A stretch of 64,000 nt of DNA from Urechis unicinctus (taxonomy: Eukaryota; Annelida; Polychaeta; Xenopneusta; Urechidae), in contig CM067343.1 in NCBI GenBank assembly GCA_034190875.2, forward strand, positions 34,855,059 to 34,919,058. The letters run 5' to 3'. Below the pieces are notes generated by a model, which made no database searches, was not told the origin of the DNA, and was given only the letters and a program-made list of their open reading frames with translations. Positions within the stretch are counted from its first letter, which is position 1, and each line of letters begins with the position of its first letter. Positions 1,250-55,330 of the stretch are shown here, in pieces. The position numbers and the translations under genes were made by a program.

Positions 1250-19331
<18,082 letters not shown>

Positions 19332-22300
19332 TGTATCGCAACATTTACATAGCCTTCGAAGTAATTGTTTTTTCTACCCTTGTTTAGATTCTGGCCTGCT
19401 GAATAATTTAATCTGATATTGCACCTGTATCCCGCATAAGAAAATGGATGGTGAATACCTCACAGATAAGAACGAAATCTTTTGGGGTGTATTTCAACCC
19501 AGTCGAGCTCACCCTCTCATAGCGCTCTGTTGGCTATCGAGCATTTCGTTTGTTAAGACAACTGCTCTATCTTTGCCACCATATATTAAACAAAGTATTT
19601 TTGAACACAGCCTTATACAATAGATGATGGACTACAACCTTAGTTCGTCTTCGTCAAGCTGATATGGCCCGGTCGAAATATACGTATGTTTGTATTAGAG
19701 AAAAAATTCTCGCGAACATCACTTCGAAAAGATGTGCTATAAATGATTGGGAATTAGCGTCTAGAATTTACCCTTTTTGAAAGAACGGTCCGGAGAGAAG
19801 GCTACAGAAAAAATTCAAGGGCTTCGTTCCTTTATCTTATGTGTTGGGAACACGTAATATGTGTGCAATTTGCACGGAAGGTAGTTTTCAGTAATGTAAA
19901 TAAACCGGATTTCCGGTTGAAAGACAGGTATGACCATAAGTTACTCATTGTTAATTGGTGCTTCTTGCAAAGAGCGTATTATATTATCACGTCATATGTA
20001 TATTCATCATTCGTGCAAATATTGTTGACGAGTTTGTAGTTCATTCCTCAACCGAGATTATAGCCAGTTGCTAGCGCATGCATATGTGCGAAACAACTTT
20101 CTTTAGCTACCTATTTCTCATATATTACATGATGTTATGTTAACAAAATCAAAAGAACTATTTTTATCGCCACACACAATTTATTAGGCGCGTTTACTGC
20201 ATGAAATTCTGCCATTTTTGCAACTTTACTAAATACTCTGATTTGCATCCTCAAACGATGTTTACACATGGATACATGTGCTTTTGTGGAAACGTATATG
20301 ATGAAAAGCTTCACATTGTCTTCATTTCAGCCAACTATCAAGGCATCTACAAAGGAACCAAACAGAAGATGGACTGGACTAAATGCTGTGTCTGAATTAC
20401 ATAACAAATCTGATCTCTTTCGCAGAAAATCCTTCTGTCATATCACTAGCCCATGTGTAGCTTCTTCAGTCAATCGAAAAATTTCATTTTCTGCGCTTTT
20501 GTGACATATATTAATGTGCTTGTACATGTGTCGAGTGGGCCTTTAATTGACTGTCACTACGCCCATGGTGTCTTGTTTGGGTATTGACAGTACCTGGGGA
20601 AGAATACGTTGTCTATTTGATCCTTGCTGTGATAAGAACTCCGTCCTTTTGTGATTGGCATTATATTGTACTGTTATGCAAGCATATAGCTCTATATATT
20701 TATGGTGAATGCAACAAATTTCTATGATCTGAAATACACTGCTGATTTTAATGATATATATATTTATCATATGATATTATTAGTTATCAATATAAATGTT
20801 TAATAATGTTACAGCTATTGGTGATTATTGACTTTGTTGTTGCGTGTAGGCTAGAAGTGTTGACAATGGTTCTGCTATAATCCTGCAAAATAAACTTGAA
20901 GTTTTAGAGTAATAACCTTTCTTTTTCAGAAACTCATTTCTTGTGAATACACCGTTTAGACTGATTTGTTGCGGCAATATGAACATTCGGTACCAGTACC
21001 AATGTATTAACTCAAAATTACTTAAATCAGGATATTTCATGGTATATAAATATGTAGTATATTTTCTGTGATGTGTATTTTTGGCTATCCTTGTGTCTGC
21101 ATATTGGCCATTGTAAACGTTCCCAATTGGGGAACACGACAGTATGTGCACCTGAAATTAAGTAGTCGCACGACAATTAGCCTGTGAGTGATAAGAGGTA
21201 GAAAACACGCAAAGTTTCAGAGTGTGCATAAACGTTGAATTTACATTGAACCATTAAGTTACTTTGAAAAGACGTATTTGAAAATGTTTTCGACGTCATA
21301 AATAAAAGTTGAATCAACTCTGGGCGTCACCGTTGCTACAGCATGTGACATCCATGTTGTTGGTGTTTGTGATGTGACTGATACAGAATATAAAACCGTC
21401 AAGTTGGTTGTCTGTTGTGTTGATGGACGATCAACAGTCGTGGAATAACTTTTGGATGTTTTCCTTGGAAGATGAATGAAATTTAACACGAGCCATTCAA
21501 TAAGTAGGAGCGGAATAAAACGGAACTGCCGTTATAACTCACCGCGATTGCTAATCCAACCTTGTTGCTTGTAAAGTATTGTTTATGCCCCACCCCCCAC
21601 CCACACATACCATCAACACCACCCTCCACAAAAGCAACCGCTTTGACCTACACGGCGATCGTATCATAACTGTGTAACATGAATACAGACTTCTGGTGTA
21701 GACAACTGAACTGCCACATTTGATAAAAAGCTCTGTTCATTATTCAGCCAACACCATGGGCTCACGCTTTTGTTGAGGTCGGTTCAGGCACCAAGCTCAC
21801 GAATAATTGAAGCCACTGGTGCCGACAGCAACGTCTAAAATGGTTCTGTCGACAAAGGTTAAGTCTGTCATATAAATAATGGAACAAAATATGTTTTTGA
21901 ACGCAGTTTACAGGGTTGCCGTGTAAGTGGACTGTAGATGATTCTAATCATGCACGTCTGGCCAGTTATATGTTACAAAATGACTATATATAAATAGGGA
22001 AGTTTTGTTCATTGGTTATATCTAACCAAGTAATTGCTCGGTCTTCGAACATCAATACAATAATTGCTATACAGCTGTTGATTATATCATTAATTTCCAT
22101 TGTTTGTCAGCTATTTAGAACCATAACTCCTTGAATTTGAGGTGACTTGCAATAGCATCGAGGTATATCCACCCTCCCGGATTCTTGACTAAGAAACCCA
22201 ACTTTCCTTGCGGTGGTTCAAACCCACACATTTTGCAAGATAGCTCATCCCATATTATTGAACATGTTTTTGCAGGAGCCTCAAATATACATATAACTGT

Positions 22301-27080: not shown

Positions 27081-30000
27081 CTGAAAAAATCACAGAGAGG
27101 TCTGAGAGAGAGCAATGACGATGAGGAATACTCAATCAGGCGATAATATATCAGCTTCTAAAAATGCGTCTATGAAAGTCAATGCGGAAGATGTTTGGAG
27201 CATTTGGAGTCATACTTGACAGTAAAATGACCCTAGTTTTATTTCATTCTATTGTATCACTGCAAATGATTATCCCACCTTGTGGTATGAATGGAAATCA
27301 AAATGAAGAAAAATGTACTCATTTTTACCAAGATAACTCAAAATTAAGCTTTAAAAAGATAAATACATAACAGCGATCCCATATATGTGACAGTGTGGGG
27401 AACTCACCGGCTGTATGGATGTGCTTAAAAGGGCAGATTTCTCCTCGCCAGCAGTTACCTTTTTGAAACCATCTACACACCTTGGATTCATCTTCTGCCT
27501 CTATCAACAGAGACGAGGTACGGTGGCAAGCAACAGAAATAATCTCGTGATCACAAGAAATAATATGTGTTAACAAATTGTTGAAAAAGAATTCTAGGAT
27601 TTGCTGTGTTGTGTGTTAACAATACTTAGTGACGGTTTTGTAACTTTTCCTACATCGAAAGATAAATTATGACTAAGAAATTGAATGTCACCTCCTACAA
27701 GCAAGCACTGGAAAGCTGATAACTGAATGCTAGTACCTGAATGCTAGCAATAGAATAAAGATGTGAATGCTAGCACCTGAATATTGATAAGTGAATGCAG
27801 GCACCTCAATATTGACCACTGAATGCTAATCGTGTCTGGAATCAGTGAACGCTAGCCGCTGAATACTGGCCAGTGAATGGGCCATTCCACAGTACATGTT
27901 CCTTAATATGTATAATTCCACAGTATATGTATGACAGACATGTTTCCAAATTATAAAAGTTGACATCTCCTAGCCTCCAAAAATTGCTTAAGAATACGTC
28001 ACCCCTTTGGCTAAAAAATTGTATCATGGAAGGGACATTTCAAAAGTGTTTTTCAAATGTGCAAATTTACTAATTTTATGGGTTTGGTTAGTAAGACACA
28101 ATGTTAGGGTCACATTAAACCATACTCTGCAAATATGTTGTTAATGTACATTCTTAAATAAAAAAAAACATAAAATAAAAAATGTTCTTTCATAATATTT
28201 TTGTTGGAAAAGTTTTTAAATATTCAATAAGACAAAGTTGTATTGCCTTAGTGATTTGTGCCCTCTTCATTCATATGTTAATGTGACATAAACACAGTGC
28301 ATTAAGTGACTTATCTGCAGGCCCAGAGCCCCTCCAATATGACAATATACATGGTCAGGTGGTCACGGGCTTAAATCAACCCTTCATAAGTATAGAACAT
28401 CGGATGGCATAAAAAGGGAAAATAATTAGCATGATCCCATTTACTGTCAATATGATATAAAACATCATGGCTGACTCCAACTGACAGACCAATACAAATT
28501 CCAGTGTTTTTTTTGGGGTGTTGAATATAATGATTATTTAAAACAAAATTGTGTGCAAATTTTGCATTCCTTAAAAAATCAATTACCTTGGAATTACACA
28601 AAAGCAGACACTTCATAATTTATCATTAAATGCTATTCAGCCAATGCAGGCAGCATAACATTCATTGCTGCATGCTAGTCAGTGAATGCAGGCAGCATAA
28701 CATTCATTGCTGGATGCTAGACAGTGAATGCAGGCAGTGTAACATTCATTGCTGCATGCTAGTCAGTGAATGCAGGCAGTATAACATTCATTGCTGCATG
28801 CTAGACAGTGAATGCAGGCAGTGTAACATTCATTGCTGCATGCTAGTCAGTGAATGCAGGCAGTGTAATATTCATTGCTGCATGCTAGTCAGTGAATGCA
28901 GGCAGTATAACATTCATTGCTGCATGCTAGTCAGTCATGAATGCAGGCGGTAACATTCATTGCTGCATGCTAGACAGTGAATGCAGGCAGTGTAACATTC
29001 ATTGCTAGTGCAGTGAATGCAGGCAGTGTAACATTCATTGCTGCATGCTAGACAGTGAATGCAAGCAGTGTAACATTCATTGCTGCATGCTAGACAGTGA
29101 ATGCAGCAGTGTAACATTCATTGCTGCATGCTAGACAGTGAATGCAGGCAGTGTAACATTCATTGCTGCATGCTAGTCAGTGAATGCAGGCAGTGTAACA
29201 TTCATTGCTGCATGCTAGACAGTGAATGCAGGCAGTGTAACATTCATTGCTACATGCTAGTGAATGCAGGCAGTGTAACATTCATTGCTACATACTATTC
29301 AGTGAATGCAAGCAGTGTAACATTCATTGCTGCATGCTAGACAGTGAATGCAAGCAGTATAACATTCATTGCTGCATGCTAGACAGTGAATGCAGGCAGT
29401 GTAACATTCATTGCTGCATGCTAGTCAGTGAATGCAGGCAGTGTAACATTCATTGCAACATGGAAGTCAGTGAATGCAGGCAGTGTATTATTCATTGCTG
29501 GATGCTAGACAGTGAATGCAGGCAGTGTAACATTCATTGCTGGATGCTAGACAGTGAATGCAGACAGTGTAACATTCATTGCTGCATGCTAGTCAGTGAA
29601 TGCAGGCAGTGTAACATTCATTGCTACATGCTAGTCAGTGAATGCAGGCAGTGTAACATTCATTGCTGGATGTTAGTCAGTGTAACATTAATTCCTGCAT
29701 GCTAGTCAGTGATTTCAGGCAGTGTAGTTTATGTAGAGTTGTTAAGGTGAGCTAACAGAGGTGTCCGACTTACTGTAGCCCATGGTAGCTACCCCTGGAT
29801 CATCCACATCCACTGCGTAGCTGTTACGTATCGACTCATAGTCGTCCAACATAGGGTTCCACTCACAAGGGACATCTGGTATAGGGCCTGGAATGCATAC
29901 CAATCACCACACACACTCATCATCATTGAATACATAGCAAACCACCACCTCTACATTTAATTGTAGACAAAATAGATCCAAACAACCCACCTGTTGGACG

Positions 30001-33000
30001 GGCTAAGTTTGTCTCAATATGGGAAGGAGAGGAAGTAAAACCTGGCAGTTTGAGATCATTGCAGGTCAGCCTCTCAACGTGAGCTGTCAACAAATCACCC
30101 TGGTTTTCTTCAGTATAGCACGTAGATAGCCTACCTTCCTTGAGGGGGACCTTGCCGAGGGAGGTACTGGAGGCGAGTCCGAGCTTCACTAGTTCTTCGT
30201 TAATGATGACCTCTTTCCTCCCCTGAGGCATCTGACACGATGAGGGGGAAGTGATGAAGGCTCTCCTCACCTTCCACATCCCTACACAAATTATATGGTC
30301 AGCCAAGATGACAGACATGAATAAATGTGGATATAAAACACCTATGGACAAACATTTTTATAAAACCTATATATTATATATATATATATATATATTATAT
30401 GGAGGTACCCAGCACTTACAAGTGGTCCAGTGAAGCTTGTATATCCACGTAGACACCTTCAAATGTCTTCTCATATCCAGTCATCTCAGCAAACGCCTTC
30501 TTCTCAGCCTCACACCACGACTTGAATCCAGCCTGTTCATCCTTCTGCATTACTGGGTACACATCAGCCAGACAGCATGGCACTGCTTGCGAGGGAAGAG
30601 CCAGAAACCTCCCTTGTAGTGGGTAGACTTTCTTCGGATCAACCCACTCCGTATTTCCAAAGTCCACATATTGCACTTTGACCTTGGAGATAGGTCTCTC
30701 ACCCACATCACCATGACCTTCCTCCTCATATTTCACCTTCAATATACGAGCCCTGTAGAAAGAGTTGTCTCCGCTGAAGAGAGTACAACAGGGGTCGCCA
30801 ACCTTTACTCTGTGATCCTGGAAGAACCTTGCCATTGTTGGTTTCTCAATATCTTTGTAGCTCTGGTTGAGTTCGTTGATGAGGAAATCTAGACTTTCCC
30901 GGGCTCCCTTCTTGACTATGTGTACCCAGAACTCGCTCGGAGATTCTATATGTGCCATCATGAACGTCAGTTTTCCATCTTCATCCATGCCATCTAGCGT
31001 AGCTTCTGCATACCCCTCAGAGTGAATTTGTTCTCCACTTTGATTTGGCTGACTATTAGGTTTGGTAGTATTAGGCTCGGTTAGGGTACAAGAGGCAGTG
31101 TCCGGCTTTTTCATCCAGTCTGTGAGGCGTTGGTGGGAGGAGTTTGATGAGTTTTTCACGAGTCTTGTAGCTGTTGCAGCAGGAGCGACTGGTGTTTGGA
31201 TAATCTTTCCACTCGGGCTCTCACTTTCAACGTTGCCATGACTTCTTAATGTCTGATTCCTAGCAGTACCTTGTTGCTCTGGTGAACAAGTGAGTGAGTT
31301 TAGACTAGAAGGGTGTTCAATGTCTTGTGGTGCAGGTGAAGGTGAATATGGCACCTTATGAACTGTAGGTGGAATCACAGGTGTAGAAACAGGTGGAACT
31401 GCACGTGGAGCAGGAGAAATTGGTGGGGCTGGGAGGATGTCATCTTGCATGTCCTCCTCCCTGGAGTTCAACGCCAGAGGGCACTGCAGTTCATGAATCG
31501 CTCTCAGAGGCAGCTGACTCAACACGACCAGTGATGAACATTTGGCGATTCTTAATGAACTCATACTGAAATAATCCTCCTTGATGGCAGTGTTCGACAC
31601 ACAAGAGGCATTAAATCGAGACTTCATGACCTCTGCAACGTTGGCTGGTCGACCAATCACAGCCTGGTCTGGCCCAGTGGGAGAGGCTTCGGTGTAGGAG
31701 AGGTCAATGAACACAAGTGGGCAGTTTTCTAAAAGTGTCACATTGGCTTGATAAAGACCTGACTCTATGGGAGTTTTTAAGAGGAAATTGCTGAAATCTG
31801 TGCAGTGCTTCCTGGACCATTTCTCCCCACTGGGTGGACCCACCTGAGCAAAAACACACAAATGGAGGTAAGATTGTGAATACAGGAGTTTGATTGATAA
31901 AGGAAGTGAAGCTTGTTCGTAATGCTTGGGTTATTACCCAAGTTACACCCACCAACGAAAAGAATGCTCACCAAAAGAATGATTACTAGATAGAAATATT
32001 TAAACAAAGAGAATGATTCTGCTTAGGATATATTCACACTAACAATGAATGATTCTTTGACAGATATATTCACACTAACAATGAATGATTCTTTGACAGA
32101 TATATTCACACTAACAATGAATGATTCTTTGACAGATATATTCACACTAACAATGAATGATTCTTTGACAGATATATTCACACTAACAATGAATGATTCT
32201 TTGACAGATATATTCACACTAACAATGAATGATTCTTTGACAGATATATTCACTCTAACAATGAATGATTCTTCTATGGGCAGTTTTAGAATCCTGGCTG
32301 GGACGCTGTGTGCTCATCAAACATAATATCAGTTGGGCTTAACACCAGATTCACAACACTTGATATCCAATTTAATGTTTGACATACTTGTGACAGGGAG
32401 CATGCAAAAGCTTGGACAGGAAGGGAGGCAAACTTGGGGTGAAGTGGGCGGAGCTCATCTGCAGATTTAGCCTCTGTGTTCCCAAAGTCAACATAGAGCA
32501 CTTCCACTGGAAACAAGAAGTGCAAAGTAATTAATCACTAGGGTTTTACAAAGCATTCAACAAGGAGGTGATATAAGTCATGGATGAGGATGATTGTAAT
32601 TAAACACCTGTATGATCTCCCGGTTTGTATGATCTCCACCTGTATCTCCTGGTTTGTACACCAGTTTGATCTCAACTGGAGTGAATACCTGTATGATCTC
32701 AGCCACCTTTATCACCTGGTTTGTACACCAGTTTGATCTCAACTGGAGTGAATACCTGTATGATCTCAGCCACCTTTATCACCTGGTTTGTACACCAGTT
32801 TGATCTCAACTGGAGTGAATACCTGTATGATCTCAGCCACCTTTATCATCTGGTTTGTCTACCTGTATGATCTCAGCCACCTTTATCATCTGGTTTGTCT
32901 ACCTGTATGATCTCACCCACCTTTATCATCTGGTTTCTCAACCTGTATGATCTCACCCACCTTTATCATCTGGTTTCTCTACCTGTATGATCTCACCCAC

Positions 33001-36000
33001 CTTTATCATCTGGTTTCTCTACCTGTATATAACACCCACCTTTATCATCTGGTTTGTCTACCTGTATGATCTCACCCACCTTTATCATCTGGTTTCTCTA
33101 CCTGTATATAACACCCACCTTTATCATCTGGTTTCTCTGCCTGTATATAACACCCACCTTTATCATCTGGTTTGTCTACCTGTATGATCTCACCCACCTT
33201 TATCACCCGCTTTGTACACCCGTATGACTCGAGCCCTGTACCACTCGTGGTCTTGGGAGAAGCAGGCACACACCACCATGCCTAAGCTAGGGGACCAGGC
33301 AACTTGCTCCATACACTGTCAGCCCTGACGCTGCCCTGCTCGGAACTGAATACATACACATGGAGAAACGCATGCGTAAGTGAAAAGAACCAGAATAAAT
33401 ACTGTTTTCTTAGCCACTCACATCAGCAATATTTTCATCCAAGATGTCTCGATGTTATTTCAAAATGGAATCAAAAGGCTGGAAGCTATTGCTCACTTGA
33501 GCCAGTTCTGTAGATCTTCCACCTTGGGGTTGAGGGGCTGGACCCAGAAGTGGTTAGGAGATGTAACAATCTGAGGTGTTACACTCAATCTGCAGCCTGC
33601 TGATAGTTCCTGCCGACTTAAATGTGGTCCATTTCCGTAATCTCCAAGCTCGTTGAGTTGCTGCAGAAGGGGTGTGGCAGCACGGTGAGGGGGTATGGAG
33701 ACAGTAGAGGAAGTCTCGCTACCAAAACTCCGTCGGGATTTCCTAACTGGTTTCTTGAGACGAGTTTTTTTGGTGGATGCTGGTTTCGATTCCCTGGGGA
33801 TAATACAGGCTTGTTCCCCCGTTGTTGAGGTTGTCCCCGGATGTTGGTCCTGTTCGGAGATGATGGGGTGTTGTGAAATAGCCTGCTTGTTCTGAGTATT
33901 GCTGGAAGATACTGCGGTATTGCAAGATGCTGGAATCTCTTTGCCCTCCTCCATCTTGCTGCCATTAAATGCCCTACCATCTTCATAATCTACAGGTGTC
34001 ACAACAACTGGCTCAAACACCTTTTCACCTTTCACACCACCTACTGATTGGATGATCTCACCAGCAGTAACCCCATCACCACCTCTTAACACACCCTCAT
34101 TGCCGCTCACACCCTCAGCCAGGATGCCAGGGTTAACACTCCCAACACACAGCTCATCTTGACCGGCCTCCGACCTCTCATGTTTCACCACCAGTGACCT
34201 CGCCTGATGGCCATCATTTCCCTCCCCATCTCTGTACGGTGGACACTCCCTGAGGTCAGGGGGCTTGTCGGGCTCCCCTCCCCCCTCCTCTCCACCACTG
34301 CTGTCATCCTCTGCATACCATACATACATGGATAAATGACAAAAATAAAAGTGCAAAACATATAAATTGACAAATAGGATTCAATAAATAAATGAGAGTT
34401 AATATCAACAATGAATGAAATAACGATTAAATTGTTAATTTGGAATGAAAATTGTTCTTCTCAAGAGATAAATATTCCACTGAAGCGCTCGAAATGGCCA
34501 ATCACCATAGGCGACTAACTATTGATTTGGGTGGAAATTTGCCCATCATAATCACGTCTTTATTTTGCGCAATATTGCAATTTTCTGGCAAGTTCTTTGC
34601 ATGCGTCATTTGTAAACATTGCCGGTTTAGCTAATCAGATAGAGCGTATTTGTCACTTGAAATGTATAGTCTTAATTCAGGATGAAGAGTACGGTTGACT
34701 GCAGCACATTGTACTCATGTCTCATGAAAATTTGTTATAGAATCATTTTTATCTGTCTTGGTACGGACAGTGTAAATGCACTCTGCGTATGGGGCGTTTG
34801 TAACGATCCTTGAGAATTGTCCATGCAGGTGGACTTTATTAATTAATTACTTGGTGTTTGCCAAGTGGCAAATTTTCTTAGGTTTGGCTCCTGTATACAA
34901 CAGCCAACAATGAGACTCGGCTGAGTTTCGAGCGCTGCACTGTTTACACAAAATACCAGAAAAAAAAAAACTACGAACTGATTCATGGTAATATCAAATG
35001 TCATATCATATGAAAGGTGAAAAAACAATAATGATACTTCTACATACCATCACCACCATCAATGGAGGTGCTTATCAGAAAGAGAACCTTGAAACATTCC
35101 TCCAACGTACAGACCACTGCAGGGTAACTATGCATGAAGCAAACACGGTCTTGTTCTTCAAGAAGCGAACCAACAGCAACCTCAGCCTGGCACACAAGTA
35201 AAAGCCAACGTAAACCTCAGCCTGGCAAACAAGTAAAACAGTCGGCGTAAACCTCAGTCTGACAAACAAGTAAAAGCCGACGTAAACCTCAGCCTGACCC
35301 ACAAGTAAAAGCCGATGTAAACTTCAGTCTGACCCACAAGTAAAAGCCGACGTAAACCTCAGTCTGACAAACAAGTACCAGTCGGCGTAAACCTCAGACT
35401 GACACACAAGTAACAGCCAACGCAAACCTCAGCCTGACCCACAAGTAAAAGTCGATGTTAACCTCAGTCTGACCCACAAGTAAAAGTTGATGTTAACCTC
35501 AGTCTGACACACAAGTAACAGCCAAAGCAAACCTCAGTCTGACACACAAGTAAAAGCCAATGTAAGTATGATACCAGGCATCTGATTAGAATGTTCCACA
35601 ATTCACACCCCATAAATAGATCACGATAATTACTGTTGAAGTTAAAGTCAAAGCCATACTTGATTGATGGGTGCTGTATTATTTATCACAGGGCTTGGTT
35701 AATGAAGACCCATATGGCAAAGTCAGATTAATAGGTTAAAGTTCATTTATATAAAAGGACACCATCAAAGCCGTTTCATAGGTCAACAAAAACGAGGTAA
35801 ATGAGAGAAGATCTACCATCCAACAATTCTGTCAGGTTAGAGAGGAGAATTCCTGCATGAAAATTGGGAAGGTATTTGATTATATCCTACGGGGACTACC
35901 TTTTTGTACTGGCTGTTTATGAAGCTACTGATGGTGTTGTGCTGTTCTCTGATGCCGTCCAGTTTCTCTTGCACTCGCTTCCGAGCCTCAACAACAAACT

Positions 36001-36019
36001 TCTTCTTTGTGAGTGCCAT
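24617..36019 (-). CDS. Gene B: three-Tudor protein with CCCH zinc finger (RNF17/TDRD4- or TDRD1-like), one apparent frameshift
   Basis: Fourteen exons on the minus strand with interlocking phases: 35900-36019, 35048-35186, 33497-34310, ~33198-33286, 32388-32506, 30420-31843, ~29991-30265, 29774-29887, 27408-27500, 26883-27080, 26250-26313, 25878-26021, 25045-25250, 24617-24863 (TAG). About 1,348 residues. Three extended Tudor domains share the family core (WYRARV or FYRAR, then YVDFG or FVDFG). Such proteins dock on methylarginine tails of Piwi proteins in germ granules and support piRNA biogenesis; that role here is inferred from the family. Exon 12 needs one extra base to keep the frame. 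Upstream RING-type exons, expected if it is an RNF17 orthologue, were not found, although an acceptor-like site just before the first ATG leaves room for them. Confidence 0.8.
27408..27500 (-). CDS. Gene B exon 9: CCCH zinc finger
   Basis: A 93-base exon, essentially one zinc finger: KVCRWFQKGNCWRGEICPF followed by KHIH. Spacing is C-x7-C-x5-C-x3-H, the standard CCCH range. CCCH fingers usually bind single-stranded RNA. It enters and leaves in phase 1, so it is a symmetric cassette that could be added or skipped without changing the frame. Confidence 0.82.
28636..29720. repeat. 42-bp minisatellite, about 26 copies, in Gene B intron 8
   Basis: Unit like gcatgctagtcagtgaatgc plus 22 more bases (caggcagtgtaacattcatt, gct). 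Because 42 is a multiple of three and most units lack stops, long Cys-rich frames appear on both strands (14-residue periodicity). Shorter, related words (gaatgctagcacctgaat) at 27720-27870 suggest an older seed. Confidence 0.95.
29774..30265 (-). CDS. Gene B exons 7-8: end of Tudor unit 2 and linker
   Basis: Exon 7 (29991-30265) contains EVIINEELVKLGLAS, the characteristic terminal helix of the extended Tudor/SN-like fold. Its acceptor is weak: an AG near 30266 gives the right phase, while the better-looking AG at about 30280 does not. Exon 8 (29774-29887) encodes an acidic linker (CEWNPMLDDYESIRNSY) leading to the zinc finger exon. Confidence 0.68.
30420..31843 (-). CDS. Gene B exon 6: linker and Tudor domain 2
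   Basis: A 1,424-base exon. It begins with the tail of Tudor unit 1 (VGPPSGEKWSRKHCTDF, VFIDLSY), continues through a Pro/Ser-rich linker, and then encodes a full extended Tudor: FMMAHIESPSEFWVHIV, VGDPCCTLFSGDNSFYRARI, VKVQYVDFGNTEWVD, LPSQAVPCCL. The aromatic-cage residues expected of a methylarginine reader (Phe/Tyr and Asp-Phe-Gly-Asn) are present. The donor ctt|gtaagt is strong. Confidence 0.85.
32013..32274. repeat. 36-bp minisatellite, about 7 nearly identical copies, in Gene B intron 5
   Basis: Unit acaatgaatgattctttgac then agatatattcacacta. Copies are almost identical, implying recent expansion or homogenisation. It is open on both strands, an artefact of the 36-base period. Confidence 0.95.
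32388..34310 (-). CDS. Gene B exons 3-5: acidic linker and Tudor domain 1
   Basis: Exon 3 (33497-34310) is a low-complexity acidic/Ser-rich linker with a basic patch (KKTRLKKPVRKSRRSF), ending NHFWVQPLNPKVEDLQNW, the typical lead-in to an extended Tudor domain. Exon 4 (about 33198-33286) holds MVVCACFSQDHEWYRARVI. Exon 5 (32388-32506) holds VEVLYVDFGNTE and LPVQAFACSL. The exon 4 start is the weakest join: the in-frame AG used here gives a short spacer, whereas a longer start at about 33314 reads better as protein but breaks phase. Confidence 0.72.
32603..33215. repeat. 40-bp (and 67-bp variant) minisatellite containing the exon 4 donor of Gene B
   Basis: Units such as cctgtatgatctcacccacc followed by tttatcatctggtttctcta. 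On the minus strand each contains gataaag|gtgggtg (or gtggctg), matching the true exon 4 end and donor at 33198. About a dozen copies run without spacing from the exon 4/intron 4 border. Three copies at the far end carry an extra segment with ttgatctcaactggagtgaa. Confidence 0.92.
35048..36019 (-). CDS. Gene B exons 1-2: basic/coiled N-terminus
   Basis: Exon 1 (35900-36019) starts at ATG in a good context (ggccATGgc) and encodes KKKFVVEARKRVQEKLDGI, a basic amphipathic helix likely to be coiled coil. Exon 2 (35048-35186) encodes a Cys/His-containing stretch (RVCFMHSYPAVVCTLEECF). Its phase-1 donor joins exon 3 as ...DGGD/EDDSSGG. A polypyrimidine-AG (tttttgtacag) lies six bases before the ATG, so exon 1 could be internal and the true start further upstream. 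Confidence 0.6.
35177..35567. repeat. ~35-bp minisatellite containing the exon 2 acceptor of Gene B
   Basis: Units of the form taaacctcagcctggcacac then aagtaaaagccaacg. Read on the minus strand, each gives tttacttgtgtgycag|rctgagg, matching the true acceptor (tacttgtgtgccag|gctgagg) at 35186/35187 and the first exon bases. About ten further copies lie in the intron upstream. Confidence 0.92.
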
Positions 36020-38059
36020 GGCCAGCTGTACAAAAAGTACATGGTAAATATAGAGAGTGAAACATTTCAAATTAAATCACACATATTCTTATGAATATAC
36101 AGAGTGAAACATTTCATATTAAATCATACATATTCTTATGGAAGTCATCGTTACCAGCAAACACATACCAAGCATGTGTAGCAGCAAAGTGGCCATGATA
36201 TTACCCATATCATTTTTACATAAATTATACAACTTATCATAGATATGTCAAACAGTTAAATAGCTGGAGGACATATATAACACAATATTTTCAGGGAAAT
36301 AATTACTTATTATTAATATTTAATAAAATGTAACATATGGCAACACAGCAACAACTGTAGAATATTTGCTTAAGCATGGGTGGAAACTAAGTGGAATACA
36401 TTTAGGTGAAAAGGGGTACTGAAAGATTTAAACAGTTCAGCCACACCAGTACCTTATGCCATTAGAAACATAAATCCTTTTAAACGTTTTTGAAAATAAT
36501 TTTTATTCTTAATTGTAACCATGGTTGCCACCATGACAACCCTCATGACATCATAGGCTGGTGAAGCCACCATGACAACCCTCATGACGTGAAGCAAGGG
36601 TTAACAGTAGGCATGAAACATCAACATGTCTGGTGTGTGGTTCAGTGTACAAAGGCTATGTCAACTATGCCACAATACAAACAGTACAGGTCTGAATGAG
36701 TGAGTGAGTGAGTGAGTGTGAGTGAGTGAGTTTAGGGTTAAACTGCACACCAACACTAATATGTCATATGGTGCCTCGAAAGGTGGGATGAATATGAAGA
36801 GATAAGTTTGACCTGATTTAGCTGCCGCCTTCCAGGATAAATGGAAAAAAGAGTGAAAAATACATGGATGATGAAAAAGATTAAATGCAAACGATTATCC
36901 TAGGGCAAGTCACCACCAGCCGATTGACTGGACCAGGCCATCCCAGCCGCTGGTCAGTTGCGGCCTCGCCGCTATGTTGGGACCAGATATTACCGCTTGG
37001 TGTGATTCTAGGGCAACATACTAATTCATAGGAGTCGTTGAAACTCGCCTTTAGTTCAGATAAATGTTCGGCGAGTTGATTTCATTAGACAAAACTATAT
37101 CAAAAACAGAAACACAGATAATTCCATTGAATTCCCAAACTGAATTGTGGTAAGATGCCACAACTAAGATGGAGTGCAGCAGCATCTCCTGCACTTGGTT
37201 CTAAAGAGCTACTACAGACATAGAGGCCGACTGTAGGTCTGGTGTGACGTGTGACAACTCAGTCACTTTCTCGGTGTTAACTTGTCAGGGTTGCCTGATT
37301 AGCTCTCGAGTGTCAGTCTTGGGCTTTAATTGGAAACTGTTGATTAGTGACTTGGCTACCAACCTCTAAGTAACAGGTAAGTGGCAAAGAAACACTACAG
37401 GTCTATAACTTGTCTAGTGAGCCACGCGCGTTATAGTTAGCGAGTTACTCAGAGCAAATCCTATATTCTCAGTTTAATTCTTAAAAACCCGACAGTTTTT
37501 ATTACCGAAAGTAAATATCTCTTGAATATGGTTAAGATTTTTTCGATTCGAGCGGGGTTTTTGGTTCAAAAGTTTATATATTATCGCTCATTCTCAATCA
37601 ACTATCGGTAGAAAATAATTACAAACAAGTATGTTGAGTAATAGAGACTGATTAAGTCAGTTATATAACTGGATAATATGGAATAGTACGACTTGACAAT
37701 AAATGAATACCATTCATTGACAATTTTAATATCGCATCTCGTGTTGGAAGACTGGCCGATGAAGTTTCGCTCGCGATAAAGCGTTATGATAGGTGGATCA
37801 GGTTTGGCATAACGTAATGTATATTGAAGAAATTTCTATCTCTTCCGCAATGTGAATCTTCGATATTTATAACAAATAACAATCATTACCTTAACAACAT
37901 TTTATGAACAATGTATGCACAATGGTGCCAATAATAATTTACCTTTCCTCACTGACTTGATGTTAAAAGATTACAGTACTCAGTAGCCTCGATACCATCC
38001 CCTCCCACAGGTCAAAGTTGGCAGTTGGGGGTAGTCCGAAATGAGATGAGTCAGCAAAA
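36020..38059. promoter_or_regulatory. Shared divergent upstream region between Gene B (-) and Gene C (+)
   Basis: About 2 kb separates the two first recognised coding exons, which point away from each other. I see no TATA box or CpG-dense island, only the GAGT repeat. It probably holds both 5' UTRs and promoters, and possibly unrecognised 5' exons of Gene B. Confidence 0.4.
36690..36732 (+). repeat. (GAGT)n head, possible SINE start
   Basis: A gagtgagtgagt run followed by gagtttagggttaaactgca. Many molluscan genomes carry short interspersed repeats that begin with GTGAGTGAGTTTAG; the rest of this copy (to about 37010) is too diverged for me to confirm. Confidence 0.45.
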
Positions 38060-39453
38060 ATGGTCCACCTAGACGGGACTGACGTGTGGTCTTCTCTTCA
38101 CGGGAGATCCCTATCATCTTACCACGCAGTCGCTCCCTCCAACAGCGGGTCATCCCTTCCCAACATCCACGCATCGTCCTCTACATCCTTGCCTCATATC
38201 ACGGATTCTTCAGCGCAAACCTCTGACAGTTTACTCGAGAAGCACTTTCACAGAACTTCATATGTAATTGGAGAGCAGTTGGGGACAGAAACTCGGAATC
38301 TGGAGTTCAAGAGCGCTCAAGGGAGGCATATATATCGGCATCTTAAGAATAATGTCGGGAAGTATATGACGGCGTTCCTTAATTCGGAAGGGGGAACGTT
38401 GCTCTTCGGCATCGATGATAAAGGTAGCCTATATAGGGGGCCTATAGCCTATATAGGGGGCCTATAGCCTATATAGGGGGCCTATATAGGGGGCCTATAT
38501 ATAGGGGCCTATAGCCTATATAGGGGGCCTATAGCCTATATAGGGGGCCTATAGCCTATATATATAGGGGGCCTATAGCCTATATAGGGGGCCTATAGCC
38601 TATATAGGGGGCCTATAGCCTATATAGGGGGCCTATATAGCCTATAGACCTATATAGGGGGCCTATAGACCTATATAGGGGCCTATAGACCTATATAGGG
38701 GGCCTATAGACCTATATAGGGGGCCTATAGCCTATATAGGGGGCCTATAGACCTCAGTTTAATATTGTTAGTTGCAATGCATTTAATACTCAACGATAAC
38801 GCAAAATATAAACAATTAATTCATCACTCAAATTCATTCATTTTGCGTCAAACAAATTTGACCTATTTCATTAATTATTGTGCATATAACCGGCATTTTC
38901 TTATCAGACTATTTCTTTTTCTGACTGACAGGGAAGGTGGTTGGTGTACAATGTTGCCACCAAGCGGAAGACAGAATACGATTGGATATAGACGGTGTCA
39001 TGGGGAAAATCAAACCGCTTCTCACCACTTCTATGTACAGCGTCAACTTCCAAAGAGTGACAAACGAGAGTGGTCATGAAATCGGTTCGTTGATGGTTTT
39101 GAAGTTACCAATATTAATCTGTGCGGTTATTTTCAAGGTGTCAAAGTCGGTCAAAATTTCATTACATGCATCAAAACGATGCAAATGCATACCCGGATCC
39201 TGAATTTTGCCAGTTATTATGTGGTATTTGTGTCACAAATGTCAATGTGATTAGATGACCTAAAGGTCATCGAGGTCATAATTCGACCACCTCCAGGATC
39301 GAGGGACAAATTATACGAATCTCAAGATGGCACTGTGTATGTAAGACGAGATGCGAGCTTGCAGAGATTAACACCAGCGTTCATCCAAGAGTGGACAAAA
39401 CAGGTGATGTTATGTTTTTTCATTCCGATGAATCAACTAATTCATGAAATTCA

Positions 39454-53080: not shown

Positions 53081-53307
53081 TCACAGCCTCACCACACCTG
53101 ACAGCTCACATTGGTGTACAGTCTCAGGTGAGCAAATGGCTCAGCCTCATTACACCTGTCTGAAGAGCGAAAGGTACAGCCTCATTAGACCTGTCAAGTG
53201 AGCGAATGGCTCAGCCTCATTACACCTGTCTGAAGAGCGAATGGCTCAGCCTCGTTACACCTGTCAGTTGAGCGAATGGTACAGCCTCATTACACCTGTC
53301 AGGTGAA
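53081..53307 (+). repeat. ~35-bp minisatellite, about 6 copies
   Basis: Units of the form cagcctcattacacctgtca plus agtgagcgaatggct, with moderate divergence. Confidence 0.85.
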
Positions 53308-54765
53308 TTAGCGACCCATTATCCCCTCCTAACAACATCAATTCGCTGCCATGTTGCTCGTTACAAGATTGTGTTCGGCCCGGTCCTCATTACAATACTG
53401 ATTTAGGCAAGCGCTGCAAATGCGCAAATATTCGCATTTATCCCCGGTTAAGCCATTCATATATAAAATCGAGAACGAAATGGGCTGATGAACGTACAGA
53501 TTATGTTGACTGCTCGAAAAATCAGTGTTGTCCCCGTTCTAAATGGCTCTGTATTTACAATGTGAATGCAATATCCGGAATGCAATCTCCGGAATGCATT
53601 ACCTAGAATGATTGCTAATATGTTGTTGCTTTGGCGATTATGGATGCGTCAGATGAATGCCGCCTTATCATAGTGGGAATGCTGATAATGATGATATTGA
53701 CGACGATAATGGCGATAATGGCATTAGTTGACAAGGTCGATTAATGAGAGGACCGCGATCTGTTGCTAATGATGTAGTTGATGCAACTAATAATAATGAT
53801 GATGATTACTATTTGTTTTTGATGACTATATTGAGAATAACGTCGATGAAGAGAATCTTTATAAAATTGACCATAATGGTGATGACTATGATGATAAGGA
53901 CGATAACAACTTCAGATCATTTTACTGTTTTACTACTTGACATGGTTTTTCTGTTTGCTGTTAAACTGATGAAGCGCGTACCTAACACTGCTGGTGTATC
54001 AAATATCCGCTCGCACCATACCACGCATAACCTCTGCCGTCGGCAGCTGAGTGACTGACTGGAACCCGATAAGGCCAGGCGTTGATGACCATTGTAATAA
54101 CGTAGCAAATGGCGTTAAATTTCAAGGTTAGATAATATAATATACGGAAATATCGCTCAAGTACTGCTGCTCCTCGCGTTCTACTGATGTGTATGATATA
54201 GTGCATGGCATTATATTTCTGTGTTGTGGTGATAGCGAACATGGTGGTAAAATAATGTCTAGCAGTCAGAGTTATGACTGTTATCTTTCGTCATATCAGC
54301 GTCTATGACTTAAAGGTGTAAGAAATCATCTGCTCTCGAATGAAAAACCACGGGGTTATAATAGATGGATGCGAGCATATAAAACAGGTGTCATCGAATC
54401 TTTGTTAGCAGGTGCCCTGTGTGGGTTCAAGAGTGGTGTTATTCATTGTCAGGCAGATAAGCTGATCATCTCGTAGAAGCTGTATAGTTTACTATTTCAG
54501 AAAATTCTGATCGTTTGCAGAGATCGTCATGTTTGTGTTGTAGTATGGTGGACATTCAGTATCTTTGAATACACGAAGCGACAGCAGTTATACCGATGGA
54601 AGTGCATTCTAAGTGTTTACGGAGCTGATAATTGATACAAATTCGATATGATTGAATATTAAAGAGAAGAATTGTTTGGTGCACAGCTTACTTTATGTTT
54701 TTATGGATGGTATTCCCGCTATCCGATGCTTTTTATATCGCTAATTCTTCGGTTACAGCTATACA
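53308..54765. other. No gene recognised; GAT-rich patch
   Basis: A gat/aat-rich stretch around 53680-53900 gives spurious frames. Nothing else is identifiable. Confidence 0.45.
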
Positions 54766-55330
54766 CCTACCCCGAGCGTTTAGAAGTGTTCACGTAACTG
54801 ATACACATACCTCCGAGCGTTTAGAAGTGTTCACGTAACTGATACACATACCTCCGAGATACACATACCTCCGAGCGTTTAGAAGTGTTCACGTAACTGA
54901 TACACATACCTCCGAGCGTTTAGATGTGTTCACGTAACTGATACACATACATCCGAGTGTTTAGAAGTGTTCACGTAACTGATACACATACCTCCGAGCG
55001 TTTAGAAGTGTTCACGTAACTGATACACATACCTCCGAGCGTTTAGAAGTGTTCACGTAACTGATACACATACCTCCGAGCGATTCGAAGTGTTCACGTA
55101 ACTGATACACATACCTCCGAGCGTTTAGAAGTGTTCACGTAACTGATACACATACCTCCGAGCGTTTAGAAGTGTTCACGTAACTGATACACATACCTCC
55201 GAGCGTTTAGAAGTGTTCACGTAACTGATACACGTACTCCGACTGATCACACTGATACACATACCTCCGAGCGTTTAGAAGTGTTCACGTTTAGAAGTGT
55301 TCACGTAACTGATACACATACCTCCGAGCG
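54766..55330 (+). repeat. 41-bp minisatellite, about 13 copies
   Basis: Unit gtgttcacgtaactgataca plus catacctccgagcgtttagaa, with partial units where the array has slipped (54850, 55240, 55290). Confidence 0.95.

Follow-up and report, generated by a model that had tools for sequence, protein, structure and literature searches.

Mirage minisatellites of the lancelet Adh3 gene were reportedly described by Canestro et al. in 2002. Repeats of this kind are placed in lancelet Adh3, troponin C, globins and PGBD5, and lancelets host all the repeats that the relevant sections of these two papers call mirages (PMC3087553, PMC3902484). The Adh3 mirage is described as tandem repeats across exon/intron borders whose length is unstable, somatically as well (PMC3087553). 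Among the globins, the BflGb6 mirage covers the 3′ end of an intron and the start of exon 2, its two haplotypes having 6 and 3 units, and the BflGb9 mirage is a 157 base pair (bp) duplicate at the 3′ boundary of exon 2, on the donor side (PMC3087553). PGBD5 is said to carry repeats of 60 and 108 bp units at both border types, the copy number varying by assembly (PMC3902484). Reverse transcription PCR is reported to suggest that mirages leave regular splicing undisturbed, although cryptic splicing at the copies is considered possible (PMC3087553). Here we describe an array of 11 acceptor-bearing 35-bp units in a stretch of 64,000 nucleotides (nt) of the annelid Urechis unicinctus (assembly GCA_034190875.2, contig CM067343.1, positions 34,855,059 to 34,919,058; hereafter the window). 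It lies at 35178..35565 on the minus strand, at exon B of a predicted Tudor-domain gene, and is probably a mirage minisatellite grown from the stretch across an exon/intron border. The same gene carries a 13-copy donor array.

The acceptor array joins a repeat kind that is known but rarely documented. Splice sites are repeated in Adh3 as they are here, in a different gene, where 11 acceptor copies and a 13-copy donor array occur together. The amphioxus globins, as described, likewise show that 5′ and 3′ borders can both be duplicated and that AG or GT is kept in many, not all, copies; their BflGb6 units measure 150-160 bp, against 35 bp × 11 here, and only one border is repeated per gene, whereas here both are (PMC3087553). 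Both border types in one gene nevertheless have a precedent, because PGBD5 is said to carry both (PMC3902484). Its copy numbers vary with the assembly, at 2 or 7 for one repeat and 3 or 6 for the other, whereas the arrays described here have 11 and 13. Repeats that shape human genes (PMC2812944) and Cryptococcus CNN00420 (PMC2395259) likewise alter exon/intron structure, but according to the passages that deal with them they become new introns or exon, and no run of many decoy acceptors at a single border is described there. What stands out at our locus is the copy number, with 22 decoys in one gene. We met no gene with 22 such decoys in the one open library searched, a search that cannot exclude one, and a narrow literature search found no paper on decoy-bearing minisatellites outside lancelets.

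A first-pass annotation of this DNA had noticed an acceptor-bearing minisatellite of 35-bp units in about 11 copies. Tandem Repeats Finder (TRF) agrees (period 35, 11.0 copies, 84% matches, span 35178-35565), as do the cores that we located: CAG[N]CTGA[A/G]G recurs in all 11 units, at a spacing of 35 nt and once of 37. Read on the minus strand, each unit is laid out as a T-rich tract, (t/c)CAG and NCTGA(G/A)GTT, and the last bases of the acceptor AGs fall at 35539, 35504, 35469, 35434, 35399, 35364, 35329, 35294, 35259, 35222 and 35187. Acceptors and donors were scored in bits with an approximate matrix. CAG is kept in every unit, and no unit scores below the 88.5th percentile of AGs in the window; the decoys reach 4.2-11.2 (88.5th to 99.9th percentile) and the putative true acceptor of exon B 9.2 (99.3rd percentile). 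In nine of the 11 units a branch-point-like yTnAy also precedes the AG by 24-26 nt, and no other AG comes between. As most units thus resemble complete 3′ splice sites, the true acceptor does not stand out by its local sequence. The last unit, unit 11, spans the predicted border at 35187/35186, and exon B is predicted to be spliced at its AG (35188-35187). The likeness between array and exon extends through 9 exonic nt, GCTGAGGTT, and ends thereafter, so the predicted border lies inside the repeat and the tandem units span it. The base after CAG varies among the other units (A, G or T); at the true border it is G. The exon had been given as opening with ctgagg; a core of the form CTGA[A/G]G is indeed present in all units, but the exon most likely starts GCTGAGG, at 35186.

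The evidence is one of homology to the border and not of motif strength. As an acceptor, the bare consensus unit has an ordinary score: it was equalled by 10% of 400 random 35-nt pieces of the window, made tandem and taken on either strand. Aligned with a 35-nt query across the true border (24 intronic and 11 exonic nt), the ten other units show 25, 26, 26, 28, 28, 29, 29, 29, 30 and 30 identities. Outside the array, the top match to this query in the window is 19/35 on the minus strand (mean 8.6, standard deviation 2.6) and 22/35 on the plus strand. This alignment, the check that the first-pass annotation had called for, supports its count of about ten decoys. It also favours the proposal that the array grew from the acceptor, which sequence comparison makes likely for the splice-site region; with just 9 exonic nt in common, either the border copy or the array may have come first, and no gradient of similarity towards exon B was seen across the units. 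The 12-column block that starts at CAG ranks first in conservation among the 35 cyclic blocks of the array. Selection on the acceptor core was considered as an explanation of that rank and rejected, since a single array gives at best about 1 in 35. The ordinary score of the bare unit would suit a plain intronic minisatellite whose acceptor likeness is incidental, with exon B misplaced or no exon at all, and so would the shortness of exon B (46 codons), which lacks homology support. We hold this to be very unlikely, as the array continues up to an acceptor that is in phase and takes in 9 nt of the exon, and the second array of the gene behaves alike at a Tudor exon that homology does support.

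The gene is read on the minus strand. Its identity as a gene for a multi-Tudor (TDRD) protein is well supported by domain matches, with three separate pieces matching Pfam TUDOR (E-values 4.5e-23, 5.2e-20 and 1.3e-06) and a CCCH finger matching at 1.4e-05. Predicted exon A (35900..36025, 42 codons) ends in phase 0 at a weak donor, AAG/gtagtc (score 4.5). Predicted exon B (35048..35186, 139 nt) has an entry phase of 0 and an exit phase of 1. It is open in only one of three frames (frame 0, starting GCT GAG GTT), and its phases fit both neighbours, since A ends in phase 0 and C continues in phase 1. Predicted exon C (33497..34310) has one frame open throughout, over 270 codons. Predicted exons D (33198..33345, donor AAAG/gtgggt at 33198) and E (32388..32506) hold the first and second halves of a Tudor core; D contains an apparent frame break, and joining E to the part of D that lies beyond it gives a Pfam TUDOR match at 5.2e-20. 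Predicted exon F (30420..31843) has 474 open codons and the Tudor domain with the 4.5e-23 match; its closest solved structure is TDRD1 (5.3e-15), which does not decide orthology. Exon G (30281-29991) is Tudor-like apart from a second apparent frame break inside it. Because exons A and B are without homology support, the acceptor of exon B rests on frame, phase and splice score, which make 35187/35186 the most likely border. RING and MYND patterns had no match in the six frames of the window, the single B-box match (29152, plus strand) falls within a minisatellite and was rejected, and of four CCCH pattern matches in the window only that at 27477 (minus strand) was accepted as real.

The second array of the gene is of the donor type (32636..33227, minus strand; several overlapping TRF rows) and comprises the exon D donor and 12 more copies. 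Exon D terminates ...GGTGATAAAG/gtgggtgaga at 33198, and the exon-like ends of the further copies follow at 33158, 33119, 33080, 33040, 33001, 32961, 32921, 32881, 32841, 32774, 32707 and 32640. These copies match exon D at 20-26 of 30 exonic positions and at 8-10 of 10 intronic ones (5 of 10 in the last copy), and elsewhere in the window the donor-copy query finds at most 24/40 overall, with a mean of 10.0. The donor scores 10.2 at eight of the 13 sites and 5.9-6.2 at the other five. The coding copy is the outermost donor, because exon D after its frame break, taken to 33198 and joined to E, gives the Tudor core. This exon-side donor is the sole one of the 13 to yield the core intact; all 12 further copies lead to a stop. 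Judged from sequence, the origin of this array from Tudor-coding DNA is much clearer than the origin of the acceptor array. At both arrays only the exon-side copy could be used without harm, which is what one would expect were copies tolerated on the intron side and nowhere else.

The first-pass annotation had predicted that use of the decoy acceptors would disrupt the frame, and this is borne out and strengthened. When the decoys were joined in silico, all ten gave a premature stop, seven through a shifted frame and three in frame. Eight of the stops lie 172-419 nt above the B/C junction and two lie 30 nt above it. Retention of the whole array-bearing intron likewise gives a stop, and only the exon-side acceptor leaves the frame open. 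Premature stops upstream of later exon junctions mark transcripts for nonsense-mediated decay. Such decay would be expected for transcripts from all ten decoy acceptors, because further predicted junctions lie downstream of the stops. The same stops bear on the idea that the array is an intermediate in intron gain, its units starting to become exon as proposed for the amphioxus globins. A model of this kind is published for mirages (PMC3087553), and introns made from repeats are reported in Cryptococcus (PMC2395259); every one of the ten versions of exon B that contain units stops early here, which leaves this idea with hardly any probability.

We favour a mirage minisatellite for the acceptor array, a reading that the mirrored arrangement at the exon D donor and the similar anatomy of the published lancelet mirages also support. 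A border-spanning stretch would have expanded in tandem, by replication slippage or unequal exchange, with the copies accumulating on the intron side. Because the copies would have accumulated there, the border copy beside the exon would stay the used one. Most likely the spliceosome still mainly picks that copy, a choice in which exon definition, spanning the 139 nt of exon B and its downstream donor, may act as the guide, and any transcripts made from decoys would carry premature stops and be degraded.

Several results weigh against this reading. The branch-point-like motif is missing from two of the 11 units, the adjacent decoy (35221) outscores the putative true acceptor by 11.2 to 9.2 on the approximate matrix, and a Pfam search of exons A, B and C joined gave no match. 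The breaks that the frame appears to have in exon D and in exon G may point to a broken gene or to a faulty assembly. Splice motifs are also only mildly enriched in the minisatellites of the window. In a sample of 29, hand-picked from 70 TRF rows with overlapping rows merged, microsatellites excluded and no use made of at least three short ones (1517-1562, 20751-20789 and 53564-53598), donors scoring at least 8 occur in 4 against 1.6 expected and acceptors scoring at least 7 in 4 against 2.4, the consensus of the exon B array narrowly missing the latter threshold. With enrichment this weak, the broader idea of a general origin of arrays at splice sites was dropped.

The two frame breaks would also be explained if the gene were a pseudogene and its array free of selection, which is compatible with the other readings. 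That seems quite unlikely, since exon C and the Tudor-bearing exon F are open over 270 and 474 codons and both breaks may be assembly errors. A different suggestion, in line with the idea of the first-pass annotation that splice choice might tune or poison expression, is that the decoys are functional: a measurable share of transcripts would be lost through decoys and nonsense-mediated decay, and array length would set the output of the gene. Their range of scores, the premature stops that all ten entail and the lead of the decoy adjoining the putative true acceptor speak for it, and the report on the globins accepts that mirage copies might be used cryptically (PMC3087553). On the other side, published mirages are reported to leave regular splicing undisturbed (PMC3087553, PMC3902484), and in a needed gene selection against such losses would be expected. 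We regard functional decoys as unlikely; to judge from the published cases, decoys that tune expression would be less likely than a harmless by-product. It is a similarly long shot, and somewhat more so, that splicing past 22 decoys, all of them leading to stops, calls for an outermost-copy rule beyond site strength, with array lengths able to dial the output of a gene that is likely germline, heritably or somatically.

Other repeats of the window were also inspected. A third array, of the donor type and with four 76-bp units, lies on the plus strand at 18616..18921, with donors at 18665, 18741, 18817 and 18893 (ACAG or TCAG/gtaagt) that score 12.6 each and about 50 exonic-looking nt per unit. 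Read-through beyond its first donor meets a stop before the second, and Pfam matched nothing in the exon presumed to adjoin it; the standing of this array as a donor mirage is less certain. The array at 38425-38750 was rejected as a mirage, as by eye it starts with base two of the intron that follows a Schlafen-type exon and the donor is not repeated. The exon itself, within 38045-38750, matches Schlafen AlbA_2 (1.2e-08), and the adjoining array has a 20-bp unit. Within the Tudor gene, the intron after the exon E region holds a 36-bp × 6.9 array (32027-32273) with 99% matches, which looks recent and has no strong splice motif. A 41-bp array at 54761-55306 (minus strand) repeats a donor-like GGAG/gtatgtg (consensus 8.5), with no exon seen alongside. 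Consensus units at 53124-53302 and 27738-27826 (minus strand) contain strong acceptor-like motifs, scoring 11.2 and 9.4, at no known exon border, and a 22-bp array at 8656-8772, away from any known exon border, carries an acceptor-like CATTCTTGCAG per unit, with a score of 7.2. The 18-bp × 17 array at 7334-7642 is largely open as a six-residue repeat, and a piece of a Cadherin domain (8.8e-08) at about 1837-2250 probably comes from a plus-strand gene.

With 11 broadly similar acceptors and 13 donors, eight of which score equally, this gene amounts to a natural experiment in which duplicated sites compete for the spliceosome. It makes the question of how the exon-side copy gets chosen testable. 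Two, perhaps three, such arrays within 64 kilobases hint that regions dense in minisatellites may commonly carry mirages.
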